From Erysipelothrix sp. (GTDB lineage: Bacteria > Bacillota_I > Bacilli_A > Erysipelotrichales > Erysipelotrichaceae), in contig JAAYHR010000015.1 of assembly GCA_012735275.1 (NCBI GenBank), positions 1 to 35,521 of the forward strand: a DNA stretch of 35,521 bases. The letters are read 5' to 3'. Of the stretch, positions 19,175-26,082 are shown one piece after another; the first letter of the stretch is position 1; every line of letters begins with the position of its first letter. Made by a program: the position numbers and the translations under genes. The notes beneath the pieces are model-generated. The model was not told the origin of the DNA and ran no database searches. It saw nothing but the letters and a program-made list of their open reading frames with translations.

Positions 19175-20239
19175 CTATATTTCTAGTCTATATTGATAGA
19201 TTGATTCCGAATAATCCTTAAGTTTTGAAAATGAAATACCTAATAAACGAATTGGGTCTTCAACATTTTCGCGATCAAAGATTAAGAGGACTTCTTCATA
19301 AATTTCATCAGTATCCTGTAGGTCATAATCAAAGGTTACTGATCTAGTTACGGTTGTAAAGTCACCAGTTCTAATTGTAACGGTTAAGGTTGAAGATACG
19401 ACCTTATGCGCCTTTAAGCGATTAGAAACCATCTGGGCTAGCGAGTAAAACTTTTGGGTTATAATTGAATAATCGGTAACATCTTCTAAAAAAGTTGAAG
19501 AGTGGCCAATTGACTTTAAACTCTCATCTAAGGAAATCTCGTAGTTACCAATCCCTTGAATCTTCTCAAGCGTCTTATCCGTATTCTTACCGAGAATCTG
19601 TTTAATTAATAAGTACTTATCTTTATTGAGTAAGTCGCCAATAACTTTGATATTATGTTCCATTAAGATTGGCGCAGTAATCTTTCCAATACCATGCATT
19701 TCATTGATTGGGATTGGATAAATTTTATTAATTACTTCTTCTTTTCTAATTAAGGTAATTCCCATCGGCTTTTGCATATCCGATGCCATCTTAGCAAGAA
19801 ACTTATTAACTGAGATTCCAATAGAGCAGGATAACTCTAAGGTCTCATATAACTTTGTTTGAATTTCATAAGCTAAATCTAAGGGACGCTGGTAATTCTT
19901 GACAACGTCAGTCAAATCTAAATAGCACTCATCAATTGATACTTGTTCAACTTGATCAGTATAAGTCTTAAGAAAGTTTACAAACTTCTTCGATAGTTTT
20001 GAATAGTATGGATGATCAACTTCAACAAAAGTTAGGTTTGGACATAAGCGCAGTGCTTCAGTCGTCGACATGGCACTTTTAACGCCATATGCCCGCGCTT
20101 CATAAGTTGCGGTCGTAATAATACCCTTCCCTCTTCTTCCGGCTATCGCAACCGGTAAATCCTTAAGTTCTGGATTTCTAATTTGCTCTGCTACAGCATA
20201 AAAAGCATTTAAATCAATATGAAAAATAAATCTATCCAA
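19175..20239 (-). CDS. dinB: DNA polymerase IV (Y family)
   Basis: A Y-family translesion polymerase of about 354 residues. Catalytic acids are present: Asp in FHIDLNAFYA (about residue 9) and Asp-Glu in VSIDECYLDLT (about 103-104). Fingers motif TATYEARAYGVKSAM, the thumb helix-hairpin-helix MHGIGKITAPI and the little-finger domain (about 235-354) follow. I chose TTG 20239 because GGTGAT lies 4 nt upstream and the distance to the first Asp then matches other DinB proteins; GTG at 20251 is the longer alternative. It overlaps the recN stop, so the two are coupled. Confidence 0.93.
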   Translation of the reverse strand: MDRFIFHIDLNAFYAVAEQIRNPELKDLPVAIAGRRGKGIITTATYEARAYGVKSAMSTTEALRLCPNLTFVEVDHPYYSKLSKKFVNFLKTYTDQVEQVSIDECYLDLTDVVKNYQRPLDLAYEIQTKLYETLELSCSIGISVNKFLAKMASDMQKPMGITLIRKEEVINKIYPIPINEMHGIGKITAPILMEHNIKVIGDLLNKDKYLLIKQILGKNTDKTLEKIQGIGNYEISLDESLKSIGHSSTFLEDVTDYSIITQKFYSLAQMVSNRLKAHKVVSSTLTVTIRTGDFTTVTRSVTFDYDLQDTDEIYEEVLLIFDRENVEDPIRLLGISFSKLKDYSESIYQYRLEI

Positions 20240-21899
20240 GCCTATCACCACGATTAACCTTAGCTAAATTATAAAGTTCTTCTGCTGTTTTTAATGAATT
20301 ATCAGAAACAATACCCGTAGCCATTAAAGCTAACTTTTCAATAATTTCATTTTGTTCTAACTTAATAATATTTGTATGGCCAATACTTGTTGAATTATCT
20401 TTTTCAACATAATAGTGCTGATCAGCATATGCGGCAACTTGGGCTAAGTGGGTAATCGTAAATACTTGGGAGAAGTTTGCTAACTCATGCATTTTCAGTC
20501 CAATCGATGATGCAACCGATCCTGAAACTCCAGTATCAATTTCATCAAAGACAACTGTTGAAATACCAAATAATTTAGAGAAGACAACTTTTAAACCGAG
20601 CATTAAGCGTGATAACTCTCCACCTGATGCAACTTTAATTAATGATTCTAAATCAAACCCCTTGTTCATAGCAACCATAAACTCAATATCATCGATTCCA
20701 TCAGCACTTGGATCTTTAGGATTAACTTCAACCTTAAAGCGCGCTTTTTCAAGTTCTAGATCAGCTAAGTGCGCTAAGATTTCATTTTCTAAATGACTAG
20801 TTTTAGCTTTTCTTAAGCTTGATAGTTTATTTGCTGAACTTAGATACTTACTTAATGCTTCAGCTATTTGCTTATCTAACTTAGCTAAGATATATTCCTT
20901 ATTATCTGCGGCATCGATTTTAGCCAGAATATCATTATGACGTTCATTAAATGATTCAAATGATCCGCCAAAGCGTTTAATTAAGTGATTCATCTCATAT
21001 AGACGACTTTCAATTCGATTAACTTCATATTCATCATATTCTAAGCCTGAGAGTGCATCAGTAATTTCACTATCAATATCCTTTAATTCAATATATAAAC
21101 TTTCCATTCTTTCTGATAATTTATCAAATGGTTCAATATCAGAGATTCTTTTAATATAATCTTTAACTTCATATAACTTTTCAAAGACACCGGCATTAGC
21201 GTTTAAGATTTGTGTTGGTGCAGATAAGTTATTAAAGAGTGTTTCATAGTTATTTAACTCTTTTATCGCTGCCTGAAGTTTATTATATTCATCTTCATTT
21301 GGATTAACTTTTTCAATATCACTTAGTTGAAATTTAAGAAAGTCAATTTCTTCTTCATTAAAAGTTGTTGCTTCAAGTTTAGTCTTTTCATTAACTAAGC
21401 TTCGATATGCTTGATATAAGTCTTTTACGATAGCTTTTTCCTCTTCTAAGCCAACAAAAGCATCAAGTAGTTCTAAATGTGTCTGCTTATTTAAAAGATA
21501 TTGATTATCTCTTTGCGTATGGATATCTAACTCTTTCGCAAATAACTCTTTTAAAAATCCTAGAGTAACTGAGCGACCATTAACCCGTGATATTGATTTA
21601 CCATTTGTATCAATCGTTCTTGAGACAATATAAAAATCATCAGCTTCGATATCATTATCAGCTAATAGTTTTAATGAGATTGGATTTTTAAAATCAAAGT
21701 GTGCTTCAATAAAAGTCGACTTAGTCTTGTCCTTATTAACATTTGCAAATAGACGATTACCACATAAATAACCTAAAGCATCAATAATTAGTGACTTACC
21801 AGCTCCCGTATCACCGGTAACGGCAATTAAACCATCATTAAAAGAAAGATTTTGCTTATCAAAGAGTACATAATTTTCTAAATATAAATTGACTAACAT
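20232..21899 (-). CDS. recN: DNA repair protein RecN
   Basis: A 555-residue SMC-like ATPase acting early in double-strand-break repair. Walker A is GDTGAGKSL (29-37; usually GETGAGKS), the ABC signature ASGGELSRLMLGLK and Walker B VVFDEIDTGVSG are near the C-terminus, and a coiled-coil arm pair occupies about 155-365. It is nearly full length (576 in B. subtilis). Starting 2 nt after the dxs stop, it keeps the dxs-recN order of Bacillus, but yqxC and ahrC, which usually separate them, are absent. Confidence 0.96.
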   Translation of the reverse strand: MLVNLYLENYVLFDKQNLSFNDGLIAVTGDTGAGKSLIIDALGYLCGNRLFANVNKDKTKSTFIEAHFDFKNPISLKLLADNDIEADDFYIVSRTIDTNGKSISRVNGRSVTLGFLKELFAKELDIHTQRDNQYLLNKQTHLELLDAFVGLEEEKAIVKDLYQAYRSLVNEKTKLEATTFNEEEIDFLKFQLSDIEKVNPNEDEYNKLQAAIKELNNYETLFNNLSAPTQILNANAGVFEKLYEVKDYIKRISDIEPFDKLSERMESLYIELKDIDSEITDALSGLEYDEYEVNRIESRLYEMNHLIKRFGGSFESFNERHNDILAKIDAADNKEYILAKLDKQIAEALSKYLSSANKLSSLRKAKTSHLENEILAHLADLELEKARFKVEVNPKDPSADGIDDIEFMVAMNKGFDLESLIKVASGGELSRLMLGLKVVFSKLFGISTVVFDEIDTGVSGSVASSIGLKMHELANFSQVFTITHLAQVAAYADQHYYVEKDNSTSIGHTNIIKLEQNEIIEKLALMATGIVSDNSLKTAEELYNLAKVNRGDRLG

Positions 21900-21901
21900 A
21901 C

Positions 21902-23698
21902 TTACATCCTTTCAATTTTCTCACTAATTGCACTCAGTAGTGAATTAGAATCTAGTTTAAGTTTTTTACGAATAGCAATTATTGAATCAGGTTGCACATT
22001 AATATCGGCAATCCCATATCTAATAACTTCAAGCTTAATATTATTATCAGTATAGTAATTATTAATCATGGAAGATAAGCCAGAGTTTAAGAGATCATTT
22101 TCATAAATATAAATTGGTATATTTAAAAGACTAATTTCTTTTAAAAGATCTGTATCTAATGGCTTAATAAAACGGGCATTAATTAGACCAATATTTAAAT
22201 TGTTTATTTGAATACGGCGCATTAGTTTTTCAACGTCATTACCATAAGTAATAATTAGGGCCTGCATATTTACATTATAGATTTCCTTTGTCCAAGAACC
22301 TATATTTATTAGACGATAGTGCTCATTTTTAACATATTGATGAATTGCGCCAGAATATCTCAGTGCCACAGGCGAATTGTATTTAAATGCTGAGTAAACA
22401 AGATCTTGTAGTTCAACTTGATCCTTAGCTTGAGCAATAACTAGATTAGCCATAGAACTTAAAAGTGTAATATCATAAATACCCTGGCTATCAATATCAT
22501 AGTCTGAGTTTAAACCTGCATCATTAATACCAATAACGACCGGTAGTTTATTTTTAGCAATATCATTATTTACTTGTTTATAGATTGATTGAATCTGTTT
22601 TGATCTAAGTGATAAGAAAGTTTTCTTTCCGCTTAAGGCTAAACCAGCTGCGAAAGCCGATGCATGCAGTTCTGAGTTAGCAATATTATAAGTCCGCTTC
22701 GGATAGTGCTCATTAAAATCACCTAAGTTACTAAAGACTAAGTTATCAGTCGAAACAGCAACAATATCAGCTTCATCTTTAGCTAAGTCAATTAATGTTT
22801 TGGTGACGATATTAGCATTAGTTAAATGATTACTTGGAAAATTAGATAATGTTTGGCCAGTCTTTGGATCAAATGGGGTAATGGCATTGTAGTGATAATT
22901 AGCATTATTCTCAACAAAGCTCACGCCCTTGCCCATCTTTGTAATCACGTGGACAATAACTGAGTTATCAATTTGCTTAGCATAATTAAAAGCGGTAATT
23001 AATTGCTTTAAATCATGGCCATCTACTGGTCCTAAGTACTCAATACCAAATTCACGAAAGATTGTTGTTTCTAAGACATTCTTCTTAATAACATTCTTAA
23101 CGCCATGTAATGAACCCAAGACTTTCTTACCAACAATATTTTTAGAGAGAATTTTATTCATATCCCCTTTAATTACATTATAAGATTTACTTGTTCGAAT
23201 ACGGTTAATGGAACGATCAATATTACCGACACTTACTTGATCACTATCAGCATCATTATAAACAATAATAACTTTCTCAACGGACTTTGAAATATGGCGT
23301 AAAGCCTCAAAGTTAATTCCATCATTAATTGAGTTATCGCCTAATATGGCAACAATTGACTTTTTCTCATGCTCAAAAGCTTGGGCTTCTGCAAGTCCAA
23401 GTGCAATTGAGATTGATGATGCATAGAGTAAATTTTTTTCTATACCATAAGCCTGATTTAATATTGTATTAACCATGGCATGTTTCTTACCATCAAAAAT
23501 TAGTTGATCAACTTCCACATCAAAAACATAATGAAGGGCTAAGGTTAATTCTACGACGCTTAAATTTGAAGCTAAATAGCCTCCCGTTTTCGCCATACTT
23601 TCGAATAGATTTTCCCGTAACTTAGCAGCAATTGTCACTAAGCCTTCATGATTAAATTTTCTAATATCTGAATTTTTACTAATTTTATTAAGGTCCAT
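21902..23698 (-). CDS. dxs: 1-deoxy-D-xylulose-5-phosphate synthase-like protein, divergent
   Basis: A 598-residue thiamine-diphosphate enzyme of the DXS type. Overall layout and position after ispA identify it: ASNLSVVELTLALHYVFD (43-60), GPVDGHDLKQLI (223-234), HVITKMGKGVSFVE, TPFDPKTG, SELHASAFAAGLALSG, LPVVIGINDAG. However, key positions of Escherichia coli DXS are changed by my alignment: His49 to Tyr41, GDG to GDN (120-122), Arg420 to Asp393, Asp427 to Tyr400, His431 to Ser404; the WDVGHQAYPHK region is replaced and about 30 residues are missing after it. The catalytic Glu (Glu343) and one phosphate Arg (Arg447) remain. Whether it still makes DXP is doubtful. The frame is intact, with RBS AGGAGG. 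Confidence 0.8.
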   Translation of the reverse strand: MDLNKISKNSDIRKFNHEGLVTIAAKLRENLFESMAKTGGYLASNLSVVELTLALHYVFDVEVDQLIFDGKKHAMVNTILNQAYGIEKNLLYASSISIALGLAEAQAFEHEKKSIVAILGDNSINDGINFEALRHISKSVEKVIIVYNDADSDQVSVGNIDRSINRIRTSKSYNVIKGDMNKILSKNIVGKKVLGSLHGVKNVIKKNVLETTIFREFGIEYLGPVDGHDLKQLITAFNYAKQIDNSVIVHVITKMGKGVSFVENNANYHYNAITPFDPKTGQTLSNFPSNHLTNANIVTKTLIDLAKDEADIVAVSTDNLVFSNLGDFNEHYPKRTYNIANSELHASAFAAGLALSGKKTFLSLRSKQIQSIYKQVNNDIAKNKLPVVIGINDAGLNSDYDIDSQGIYDITLLSSMANLVIAQAKDQVELQDLVYSAFKYNSPVALRYSGAIHQYVKNEHYRLINIGSWTKEIYNVNMQALIITYGNDVEKLMRRIQINNLNIGLINARFIKPLDTDLLKEISLLNIPIYIYENDLLNSGLSSMINNYYTDNNIKLEVIRYGIADINVQPDSIIAIRKKLKLDSNSLLSAISEKIERM

Positions 23699-23722
23699 AG
23701 TTCCTCCTAGAATTTGATAGTA

Positions 23723-24562
23723 TTATTTTTGACGGTTTTCAATATTAACAATAAGTTCTTTTAAGTTATTAGATTTTAAATCTAAAGTATTTAATACGTT
23801 ATAGATATTTTCAAATAATTCAGCAACACTTGCTTTTGATGCTTCTAAGCCAATTAGTTTAACATAAGTTGACTTATCATTATCTTCATCACTAGCGTAT
23901 TTACCAATTTCTTCAAATGTTTTAGTTACATCAAGAATATCATCTTGGATTTGAAATGCTAGACCTAAGTCTTTAGCAATTACTAATAGTTTTTCAATAT
24001 CTTGATCAGCATTAGCGATAATCGCTGCCGCACTAAGGGCGAACATAATTAGATTAGATGTTTTATAAACATTAATCTCTTTTACATCATCAAGTAATAA
24101 TGCTTTTGATTCACCGGCTAAATCTAATTGTTGACCATAAATCATACCGCCGATTCCTGAGTATTTAGCTAAGGCTTGAACTAACTTTATTTTCTCTTCT
24201 GGATAGTTTGCAATGTCACTTGCGATAATTGCGAAGGCTTCAGTTAAAAGCGCATCTCCCGCTAATATGGCAATATCTTCACCAAACTGTTTATGCGTTG
24301 ATAATTTACCACGACGATAATCATCATTATCCATTGCTGGCAAATCATCATGGACAAGTGAATATGAGTGAATTAATTCAATTGCTAAAGCGGCACTAAG
24401 CCCCTTTTCAATATTAATTCCATAATCACTAAGTAGTGCTAAAAGCAACATGGGACGAACGCGTTTACCGCCATCTGCTGTCGCATAAATTACGGCATCA
24501 TTGACTGATCCTTGGCTATTGTAATTGTAATCTTGTAAAAACTTCTCAAAAGTATTTAACAT
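23723..24562 (-). CDS. ispA: polyprenyl (farnesyl/geranylgeranyl) diphosphate synthase
   Basis: A 279-residue trans-prenyltransferase making short-chain prenyl diphosphates, needed for undecaprenyl phosphate. Conserved regions: GGKRVRPMLLLALL (about 32-45), first Asp-rich motif LVHDDLPAMDNDDYRRGKLS (about 74-93), GDALLTEAF, and second Asp-rich motif QIQDDILDVT. All metal-binding Asp are present, in contrast to the altered dxs next to it. The bacterial six-residue first motif and small size favour FPP synthase. The start is 1 nt after the xseB stop, so translation is coupled. Confidence 0.93.
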   Translation of the reverse strand: MLNTFEKFLQDYNYNSQGSVNDAVIYATADGGKRVRPMLLLALLSDYGINIEKGLSAALAIELIHSYSLVHDDLPAMDNDDYRRGKLSTHKQFGEDIAILAGDALLTEAFAIIASDIANYPEEKIKLVQALAKYSGIGGMIYGQQLDLAGESKALLLDDVKEINVYKTSNLIMFALSAAAIIANADQDIEKLLVIAKDLGLAFQIQDDILDVTKTFEEIGKYASDEDNDKSTYVKLIGLEASKASVAELFENIYNVLNTLDLKSNNLKELIVNIENRQK

Positions 24563-24563
24563 A

Positions 24564-24761
24564 TTATCCCTGATATTTATCGACTAATTCATTAATTGAA
24601 CTTTCGAACCCTTCTAATTTTGTATTACACATTTGGATTAATTTTAATCCCTCTTCAAATAGTGTCATTGAGTTGTCTAAGCTTTCTTCACCACTCGCAA
24701 GTTTTTGATTAATTACTTCTAAGCGTTTAATCGCTTCTTCAAAATTAAAGTTTTCCATCAT
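24564..24761 (-). CDS. xseB: exodeoxyribonuclease VII small subunit
   Basis: A helical protein of about 65 residues with the XseB pattern NFEEAIKRLEVINQKLASGEESLDNSMTLFEEG spread over two helices. It binds the large subunit XseA to form a single-strand exonuclease. A longer frame exists from TTG 24776, but the RBS AGGAAG (24765-24770) places the start at one of the ATG pair at 24761 and 24758. It overlaps the end of xseA. Confidence 0.92.
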   Translation of the reverse strand: MMENFNFEEAIKRLEVINQKLASGEESLDNSMTLFEEGLKLIQMCNTKLEGFESSINELVDKYQG

Positions 24762-26082
24762 TTTCTTCCTTTCCAATTACACTAGCAATGATATGACCAT
24801 CACCAAGTGCGACTTTTATTTCATCGTTAATATTTATATCCTTAACACTCTTAATTATTTGATCATTATGCTCAACAATTGAATAACCACGCTTAAGCGT
24901 ATTAATTGGTGAATAAGAATCAAGTAATTGTAGTTGATTGCTGAAGTTAGCTTTTAACTTATTTTCAAATAAGTTAATGTTATTGTATAATTCCTGCTTT
25001 AATAAGGCCGTCTTATTTACTTCTATATTTATTATATCATTAGCACTTGCGATTATAGACTTTTCTAAAAGTTTGTACTTATTAATATTTTCAATAAATC
25101 TTGATTGATAAGCCTGGAGTTTATCTGCATTTAAGCGTAACGCTTTTTGATAAGTCGCAGTCAATAGTTCAGGATGTTTAAAGCTTGCCATATTACTATA
25201 GGTATAGACTAACTGTGAGGCATTATTTAACTGATAATTCATTCGCTCTTTTAAGCTATTCTCATATTGTTTAAAACTAGCTTTGACATCAGTAATATTT
25301 GGTGTAATTAACTCGGCTGCTGCGGTTGGGGTTGGTGCTCTTAAGTCGGCAACAAAATCCGATATCGTAAAGTCAATTTCATGACCAACACCTGATATAA
25401 TTGGCGTCTTTAAATTATAAATTACCCGCGCTAGGGATTCTTCATTAAATGCCCAAAGATCTTCTATCGATCCACCACCACGGGCTAAGATAATCGCATC
25501 ATAGTCTTGATTATCAATCTTTATTAAGTTTGAGATTAAGTCTAAATGCGCTTCTGGTCCTTGAACTAAAGATGGATAGACATTTACAGTGGCAATTGGC
25601 CAACGGCGCTCTAGAGTCGTTAAAATATCATTTAGGGCTGCGGAATCCTTGCCTGAGACAACCGCAATTCGACTTGGAAACTTTTTAAAGCCTTGTTTAT
25701 GTTGCTCAGCAAATAAACCTTCAGCATTTAACTGCTTTTTAAGTAACTCAAAACGAGCAGATAAATCGCCTGCTCCTTCTTCATTCATTTCTGTGACATA
25801 CAATTGTAGTGATCCTGATGACTCAAAGATCGACACATTAGCTTTTAATGAAACTAACATACCATCTTTTGGATTAAAATTAACTTGGCGGGCATTGGTT
25901 GCAAACATAACACAAGAAACGCGACTAACTTCATCTTTAAGCGTGAAGTACATATGGCGATTGTTGTGATACTTAAAGTTTGATAACTCCCCTACAACAT
26001 TAATATTCTGAATTAAAAAGTCATTATCTAGTTTTAACTTTAAGTAAGCTACTAAAGATTTAACTGACCACTTTTGACTCAT
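24745..26082 (-). CDS. xseA: exodeoxyribonuclease VII large subunit
   Basis: 445 residues. An N-terminal OB fold (WSVKSLVAYLKLKLDNDFL...VVGELSNFKYH...HMYFTLKD), a catalytic core with VVSGKDSAALNDILTTLERRWP, ARGGGSIEDLWAFNEE and VGHEIDFTISDFVADLRAPTPTAAAEL, then a long coiled-coil (about 270-385) that holds XseB. All family motifs are present. ATG overlaps the nusB stop in ATGA, so it is co-translated. folD, found between nusB and xseA in Bacillus, is missing. Confidence 0.97.
   Translation of the reverse strand: MSQKWSVKSLVAYLKLKLDNDFLIQNINVVGELSNFKYHNNRHMYFTLKDEVSRVSCVMFATNARQVNFNPKDGMLVSLKANVSIFESSGSLQLYVTEMNEEGAGDLSARFELLKKQLNAEGLFAEQHKQGFKKFPSRIAVVSGKDSAALNDILTTLERRWPIATVNVYPSLVQGPEAHLDLISNLIKIDNQDYDAIILARGGGSIEDLWAFNEESLARVIYNLKTPIISGVGHEIDFTISDFVADLRAPTPTAAAELITPNITDVKASFKQYENSLKERMNYQLNNASQLVYTYSNMASFKHPELLTATYQKALRLNADKLQAYQSRFIENINKYKLLEKSIIASANDIINIEVNKTALLKQELYNNINLFENKLKANFSNQLQLLDSYSPINTLKRGYSIVEHNDQIIKSVKDININDEIKVALGDGHIIASVIGKEENDGKL

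Follow-up and report, generated by a model that had tools for sequence, protein, structure and literature searches.

The window analysed here is the whole stretch of 35,521 nucleotides, and the gene of interest occupies positions 21902-23698 on its reverse strand. The open reading frame has 598 codons, begins with ATG and runs without an internal stop, so that the coordinates, strand and length given in the preliminary description were correct. The local gene order is xseA-xseB-ispA-[pseudo-DXS]-recN-dinB-xer-deoB, where pseudo-DXS denotes the gene under study, and the earlier placement of this gene in an ispA-dxs-recN slot is borne out by the order of genes here and in relatives. The features of the locus, all on the reverse strand, are:

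20232-21899, reverse strand: recN, with its start 2 bases past the pseudo-DXS stop codon
21902-23698, reverse strand: putative DXS-derived pseudoenzyme of 598 aa, with the active-site network lost and the fold kept
22670-22672, reverse strand: codon for Glu343 (equivalent to E. coli Glu370), kept here and lost in most other pseudo-DXS lineages
23063-23218, reverse strand: flexible-loop codons, residues ~161-212 (Ec 193-241 in E. coli numbering), dispensable for canonical DXS catalysis and unusually conserved between pseudoenzymes
23703-23708, reverse strand: AGGAGG ribosome-binding site, 4 bases before the pseudo-DXS start codon, read directly
23723-24562, reverse strand: intact ispA (farnesyl diphosphate synthase), directly upstream of the pseudo-DXS gene
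24564-24776, reverse strand: probable xseB, small subunit of exonuclease VII, named from its context (an ORF positioned between ispA and xseA)

The ribosome-binding region of recN falls within the 3′ end of the pseudo-DXS frame. Rfam and tRNA scans gave no match near the gene, and promoter and terminator scans at the gene did not yield more than expected by chance. Elsewhere in the window, a ribosomal protein L21 leader (Rfam RF00559, 53.7 bits) lies at 298-368 on the forward strand, upstream of rplU. The genome to which the window belongs (G000; 1.07 Mb, 85% complete) had two congeners in the search set: the sister species G002 (94% complete; contig JAAZDN010000017.1) and G001 (66% complete).

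Family membership and active-site residues

The window protein resembles DXS (TIGR00204, PF13292; EC 2.2.1.7) in its full-length homology, its three-domain fold, its ispA-dxs-recN locus and its equivalent of Glu370. It differs in falling below the curated cut-off, in the loss of the catalytic network, the GAP site and one Mg ligand, in a deletion of ~30 residues, and in its genome, which, IspE apart, is without the downstream MEP enzymes. Its score against the NCBIfam dxs equivalog (TIGR00204, cut-off 466 bits) was 390 bits; the homologue in G002 scored 356 bits and that in the congener G001 733 bits. An AlphaFold2 model of the window protein (mean pLDDT 82) keeps the DXS fold and its best PDB matches are all DXS (TM 0.82), in support of the earlier statement that the fold is retained; the model of the pseudo-DXS of genome G192 is weaker (mean pLDDT 76.5). 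Identity as a transketolase was rejected (77 bits against a cut-off of 488), and a separate, two-piece transketolase is encoded in G000. The PRK12315/NF008968 DXS-like subfamily of Firmicutes also consists of DXS homologues outside the main equivalog. Membership of this subfamily was rejected (240 bits against a cut-off of 510), and since the TIGR00204 score is higher, the window protein derives from the main DXS rather than from this subfamily.

Residues were compared in an alignment to E. coli DXS and 28 family or order relatives. The replacements of H49 by Y41, R420 by D393, D427 by Y400 and H431 by S404 that the preliminary description had listed were all found, as were the change of GDG to GDN (D121-N122) and the retention of the catalytic Glu (E370, here E343). 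It had also taken the WDVGHQAYPHK region plus about 30 residues to be gone. The loss of ~30 residues (about Ec 90-121, including R99 and H122) held, but the WDVGHQ segment is still there, rewritten as FDGKKHAMVNTIL, and the missing residues come after it. Further losses, beyond those reported earlier, are H80 to K, the deletion of R99, N181 to A (a Mg ligand), M183, H299 to N, Y392 to R, F395 to Q, R398 to S and R478 to G. The published active-site network of DXS, H431-D427-R99-H49-H299 (PMC12633525), thus reads Ser, Tyr, deleted, Tyr and Asn in the window protein and is fully lost, and the GAP (phosphate) ligands R420 and R478 (PMC11908136) are replaced by D393 and G450. Network and GAP ligands are likewise all replaced in the sister species. 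The equivalents of E370, H372 and D152 are kept in both proteins; of the Mg ligands, therefore, D152 is present in both, and N181 is Ala in the window protein and Asn in G002. Over 95 columns that are invariant in the 28 relatives and E. coli, G000 keeps 46, G002 47 and G001 all 95. Judged from the alignment, the loss of catalytic residues from the window protein is far beyond chance.

An error of sequencing or assembly was ruled out, because the independent MAG of the sister species carries the same changes. Its homologue is also of 598 residues and 51% identical to the window protein, with the same losses; that of G001 is a canonical DXS of 622 residues. There are 42 invariant columns lost in both G000 and G002, and the same new residue appears in 13 of them; catalysis was therefore very probably lost before the two species split. 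The window protein is an intact homologue that has lost conserved catalytic residues, as expected of a pseudoenzyme, and it resembles pseudoenzymes in general (reviewed in PMC10211241) in that conserved catalytic motifs are lost whilst the protein is retained under selection. Our literature search found no pseudoenzyme of the DXS family. Lactococcus lactis DxsA is also a dxs homologue, and its deletion barely altered antimicrobial sensitivity, but its active-site residues are described as conserved (PMC7864038).

Isoprenoid supply and selection in the sister species

When the E. coli MEP enzymes were joined into one concatenated query, only UppS, MraY and IspE were matched in G000 and G002, and E. 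coli queries for Dxr, IspD, IspF, IspG, IspH, ThiG and PdxJ found none of them in either genome. IspD, IspF, IspG and IspH are kept in G001. In the order uppS-cdsA-[dxr]-rseP, only 22 bp (G000) and 17 bp (G002) are left at the site of dxr; in G016, dxr is present between cdsA and rseP. No second, canonical dxs was detected in G000, where the other matches were the two halves of the split transketolase. Both species instead carry an operon of a TctA-family transporter, mevalonate kinase (MVK), diphosphomevalonate decarboxylase (MVD), phosphomevalonate kinase (PMK) and type 2 IPP isomerase (IDI-2), the roles of MVK, MVD and PMK being assigned from family membership and gene order. Our suggestion that DXS activity became dispensable rests on this operon and on the absence of the MEP steps, and the same two observations uphold the option, raised earlier, that the cell uses another isoprenoid route. 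The literature search found nothing direct on isoprenoid routes in Erysipelotrichia.

HMG-CoA reductase (HMGR) was not found in G000 (85% complete), G001 (66%) or G002 (94%), using a query that also matched in the control genome of L. lactis, an organism that uses mevalonate. The lower mevalonate set MVK, MVD, PMK and IDI-2 is thus present without HMGR in G000 and G002, and we therefore propose that mevalonate is imported. Three genomes that lack HMGR (G000, G002 and G009) have the TctA gene at the head of the mevalonate operon, and the operon of the HMGR-bearing G192 has no TctA gene; the simplest reading of this pattern is that G000 and G002 probably import mevalonate. The TctA-family permeases, candidate mevalonate importers, are encoded at L065:7852-9207(+) (contig C53 of G000), L067:3045-4403 and L085:10225-11595. 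In G009, mevalonate kinase and diphosphomevalonate decarboxylase are seemingly fused in one ORF of 621 residues (L085:8350-10215(-)). Genome G018 of the family (98% complete) gave no match to DXS, the MEP enzymes, UppS, MraY or HMGR, perhaps an effect of indexing or masking.

Purifying selection acts on the window ORF. The difference between G000 and G002 is 0.425, 0.244 and 0.552 at codon positions 1, 2 and 3, and a codon model rejects ω = 1 for this pair (2ΔlnL = 345). The preliminary description had called for dN/dS among close relatives and had allowed for a non-catalytic relic. Neutrality is rejected, and the strength of the selection seen in the codon positions and ω tests contradicts a relic, although a value of ω could not be estimated for this pair because synonymous sites are saturated. 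Saturation affects most pairs and makes absolute ω imprecise; in the two best-resolved pairs of genus g3, ω is 0.040 and 0.071 for pseudo-DXS and 0.026 and 0.052 for IspA. In the closest g62 pair, pseudo-DXS is 79% identical, IspA 81% and RecN 69%. The pseudo-DXS stem branch (0.80, against 0.07 for IspA) shows faster evolution than in canonical DXS, and the pseudo-DXS tip branches are 1.6 to 2.1 times those of IspA, as expected once the catalytic constraint is gone. At the canonical-invariant columns, G000 and G002 are only 61% identical (53/87), little more than the 50% at other columns (251/502), against 100% for pairs of canonical DXS at the invariant columns.

Distribution across the family and location of constraint

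When 273 genomes of the family were scanned and the weaker matches inspected, 22 intact pseudo-DXS ORFs of 557-614 residues emerged. They fall in eight genera (g3, 9; g62, 4; g66, 3; g1, 2; g24, g10, g50 and g75, 1 each), a recurrence that does not fit the single lineage in which the gene had earlier been framed; g1, g3 and g10 each hold canonical as well as pseudo members. All 22 are flanked by ispA, with recN adjoining or ~700 bp further, and the scores of those tested run from 170 to 390 bits, all short of the dxs cut-off. Every one except G230b (g66) is without four or more of the five network residues; G230b, the mildest case, keeps H431, R99, H49 and E370, has Glu for D427 and has lost H299, R478 and R420. 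Glu370 is also lost in g3 and g62 and in G011, G060, G290, G225b, G227b and G259b.

The isoprenoid genes that accompany pseudo-DXS vary. In g62 there is a mevalonate pathway with HMGR and, as in g1, IspE is the only later MEP step. A second, canonical DXS is encoded at another place in the genome in g66 and g24; in g66 it stands next to dxr, at L133:3128-4999(+) in G227 and on contig C2 of G225. G011 has HMGR, no Dxr and two adjacent IspD-like genes, and G060, likewise without Dxr, has additional DXS-like genes. The g3 genomes (loci L109-L113, L115 and L117-L119) keep Dxr, IspE, IspF, IspG and IspH, one or two of which were not found in some drafts, and those searched (G163, G164, G166, G168 and G172) yielded no DXS besides the pseudo-DXS without Glu370. 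MEP genes without Dxs have been recorded in 181 of 4,400 bacterial species (PMC10663253); the present case differs in that a full-length pseudo-DXS exists, which a score threshold may report as absent. The g3 genomes sharpen the question of where DXP originates in bacteria that have other MEP genes but no DXS.

The constraint on each segment of the protein was compared with that in canonical pairs matched on IspA divergence. The pairs are non-independent and the fit is linear, and the z values are to be taken as indications rather than probabilities; read in this way, constraint is lost from the active-site segment Ec388-436 in all four groups tested (z -4.4 to -7.3). The same holds for Ec69-131 in g1, g62 and g66 and, to a lesser degree, in g3. 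In the two g1 species, the segments around E370, H372 and D152 keep normal constraint. The loop Ec193-241 is conserved above expectation in g1 (0.63 vs 0.50), g3 (0.76 vs 0.57) and g62 (0.82 vs 0.50), with indicative z values of +1.7, +2.4 and +4.1, but its constraint is not raised in g66 (indicative z -0.6). In DXS this loop is poorly conserved and lies outside the active site (PMC10504544, PMC9068908), and activity is comparable when glycines are put in its place (PMC10504544).

Explanations for the retention of pseudo-DXS

The window protein is almost certainly not a DXP synthase. The explanation that we favour, and judge moderately probable, is that it is a DXS-derived pseudoenzyme, recurrent in the family, that has been kept by selection for a non-catalytic function. 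That some function other than DXP synthesis exists is well supported by the selection, the recurrence and the shift of constraint. The lower mevalonate pathway, probably supplied with imported mevalonate, would have been gained by an ancestor and would have made DXS catalysis dispensable. The genes dxr, ispD, ispF, ispG and ispH would then have been deleted, and the DXS protein kept for a second, catalysis-independent function, probably one in which domain I and the flexible loop (Ec 193-241) make contact with another protein. We hypothesize this contact surface, and also a link to the co-encoded IspA, which at a guess may be the partner, as may another isoprenoid or envelope protein.

Several rival explanations of the window gene were weighed. 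It is unlikely that catalysis was repurposed, with Glu343, Asp121 and the GD motif still binding ThDP for a different carboligation or decarboxylation. The equivalents of E370, H372 and D152 are conserved in both g1 species, the constraint around them is normal and the fold is retained; however, N181 is Ala in G000, and H49, H80 and H299 are lost. The pockets of the sisters also differ (D427 is Y/V, H431 S/Y, R478 G/N, R420 D/N and Y392 R/S), so that no new pocket is conserved, and E370, D152 or both are lost in related pseudo-DXS lineages. For the earlier suggestion of a DXS with another activity, the persistence of these three residues stands in favour, but new ThDP chemistry is unlikely because the pocket differs between sisters and other lineages have lost Glu370. 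Decidedly unlikely, in our view, is a relic whose frame is kept only by translational coupling to recN, a stop or frameshift being polar on recN and the genes downstream. The close spacing of the two genes, similar overlaps in g3, g10 and g66, and the faster evolution along the stem branch would agree with this; but coupling protects a frame and not the amino acids, and since constraint at the protein level is strong, coupling alone is insufficient to explain retention. Moreover, pseudo-DXS is kept in G060, G259 and G290 although recN starts ~700 bp further on. Least credible is a protein that still makes DXP with shifted residues, for which the fold and Glu370 speak: Dxr, IspD, IspF, IspG, IspH, ThiG and PdxJ, which would use the DXP, were not found, ~30 residues, R99 and H122 among them, are deleted from the ThDP-side loop, and the two sisters share no alternative His, Arg or Asp at the site.

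For the family as a whole, we tentatively suggest, at somewhat less than even chances, that DXS has a conserved second, non-catalytic function in the flexible loop and that catalysis was discarded several times independently once it became redundant, by acquisition of a mevalonate pathway, by acquisition of a second DXS or through another source of DXP. Several independent losses of catalysis are favoured, though not proven. A more doubtful account of the family-wide pattern, compatible with the favoured explanation of the window gene, is that the true enzyme gave way a single time to one ancient pseudo-DXS, which the canonical genera subsequently lost or replaced. The unconstrained gene tree puts most pseudo-DXS together near the base, and a single clade of all of them is only borderline rejected (p-AU 0.05). 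However, long branches attract, and placing pseudo-DXS with their genus mates is not rejected (p-AU 0.25). In the unconstrained tree, G011 falls with its canonical congener G188 and G060 lies among canonical g2 relatives, and in g1, g3 and g10 the gene occupies the same slot whether it is canonical or pseudo, all of which argue against a single origin.

As an antibacterial target DXS is widely pursued, and it is the flux-controlling step of the MEP pathway. If the favoured explanation is true, a pseudo-DXS that recurs and is selected would imply that the DXS protein does more than catalysis, and pseudo-DXS proteins would be natural separation-of-function variants. In this family, homology-based annotation would wrongly assign both DXP synthesis and the MEP pathway.

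The remaining MEP enzyme of the sister species, an orphan IspE-like kinase, is encoded at L050:9348-10286(-) in G000 (contig C4) and at L053:9664-10542(+) in G002. Its Lys10, Asp141 and glycine-rich loop are intact (26 of 28 invariant columns kept), and the GAD motif beside the catalytic Asp has become ETD in both species. In the g62 kinase, DED stands in place of GAD and Tyr25-His26 are lost. These changes suggest that the substrate of the kinase is likely altered. Genera g1 and g62 keep the same two MEP proteins, pseudo-DXS and the altered IspE.
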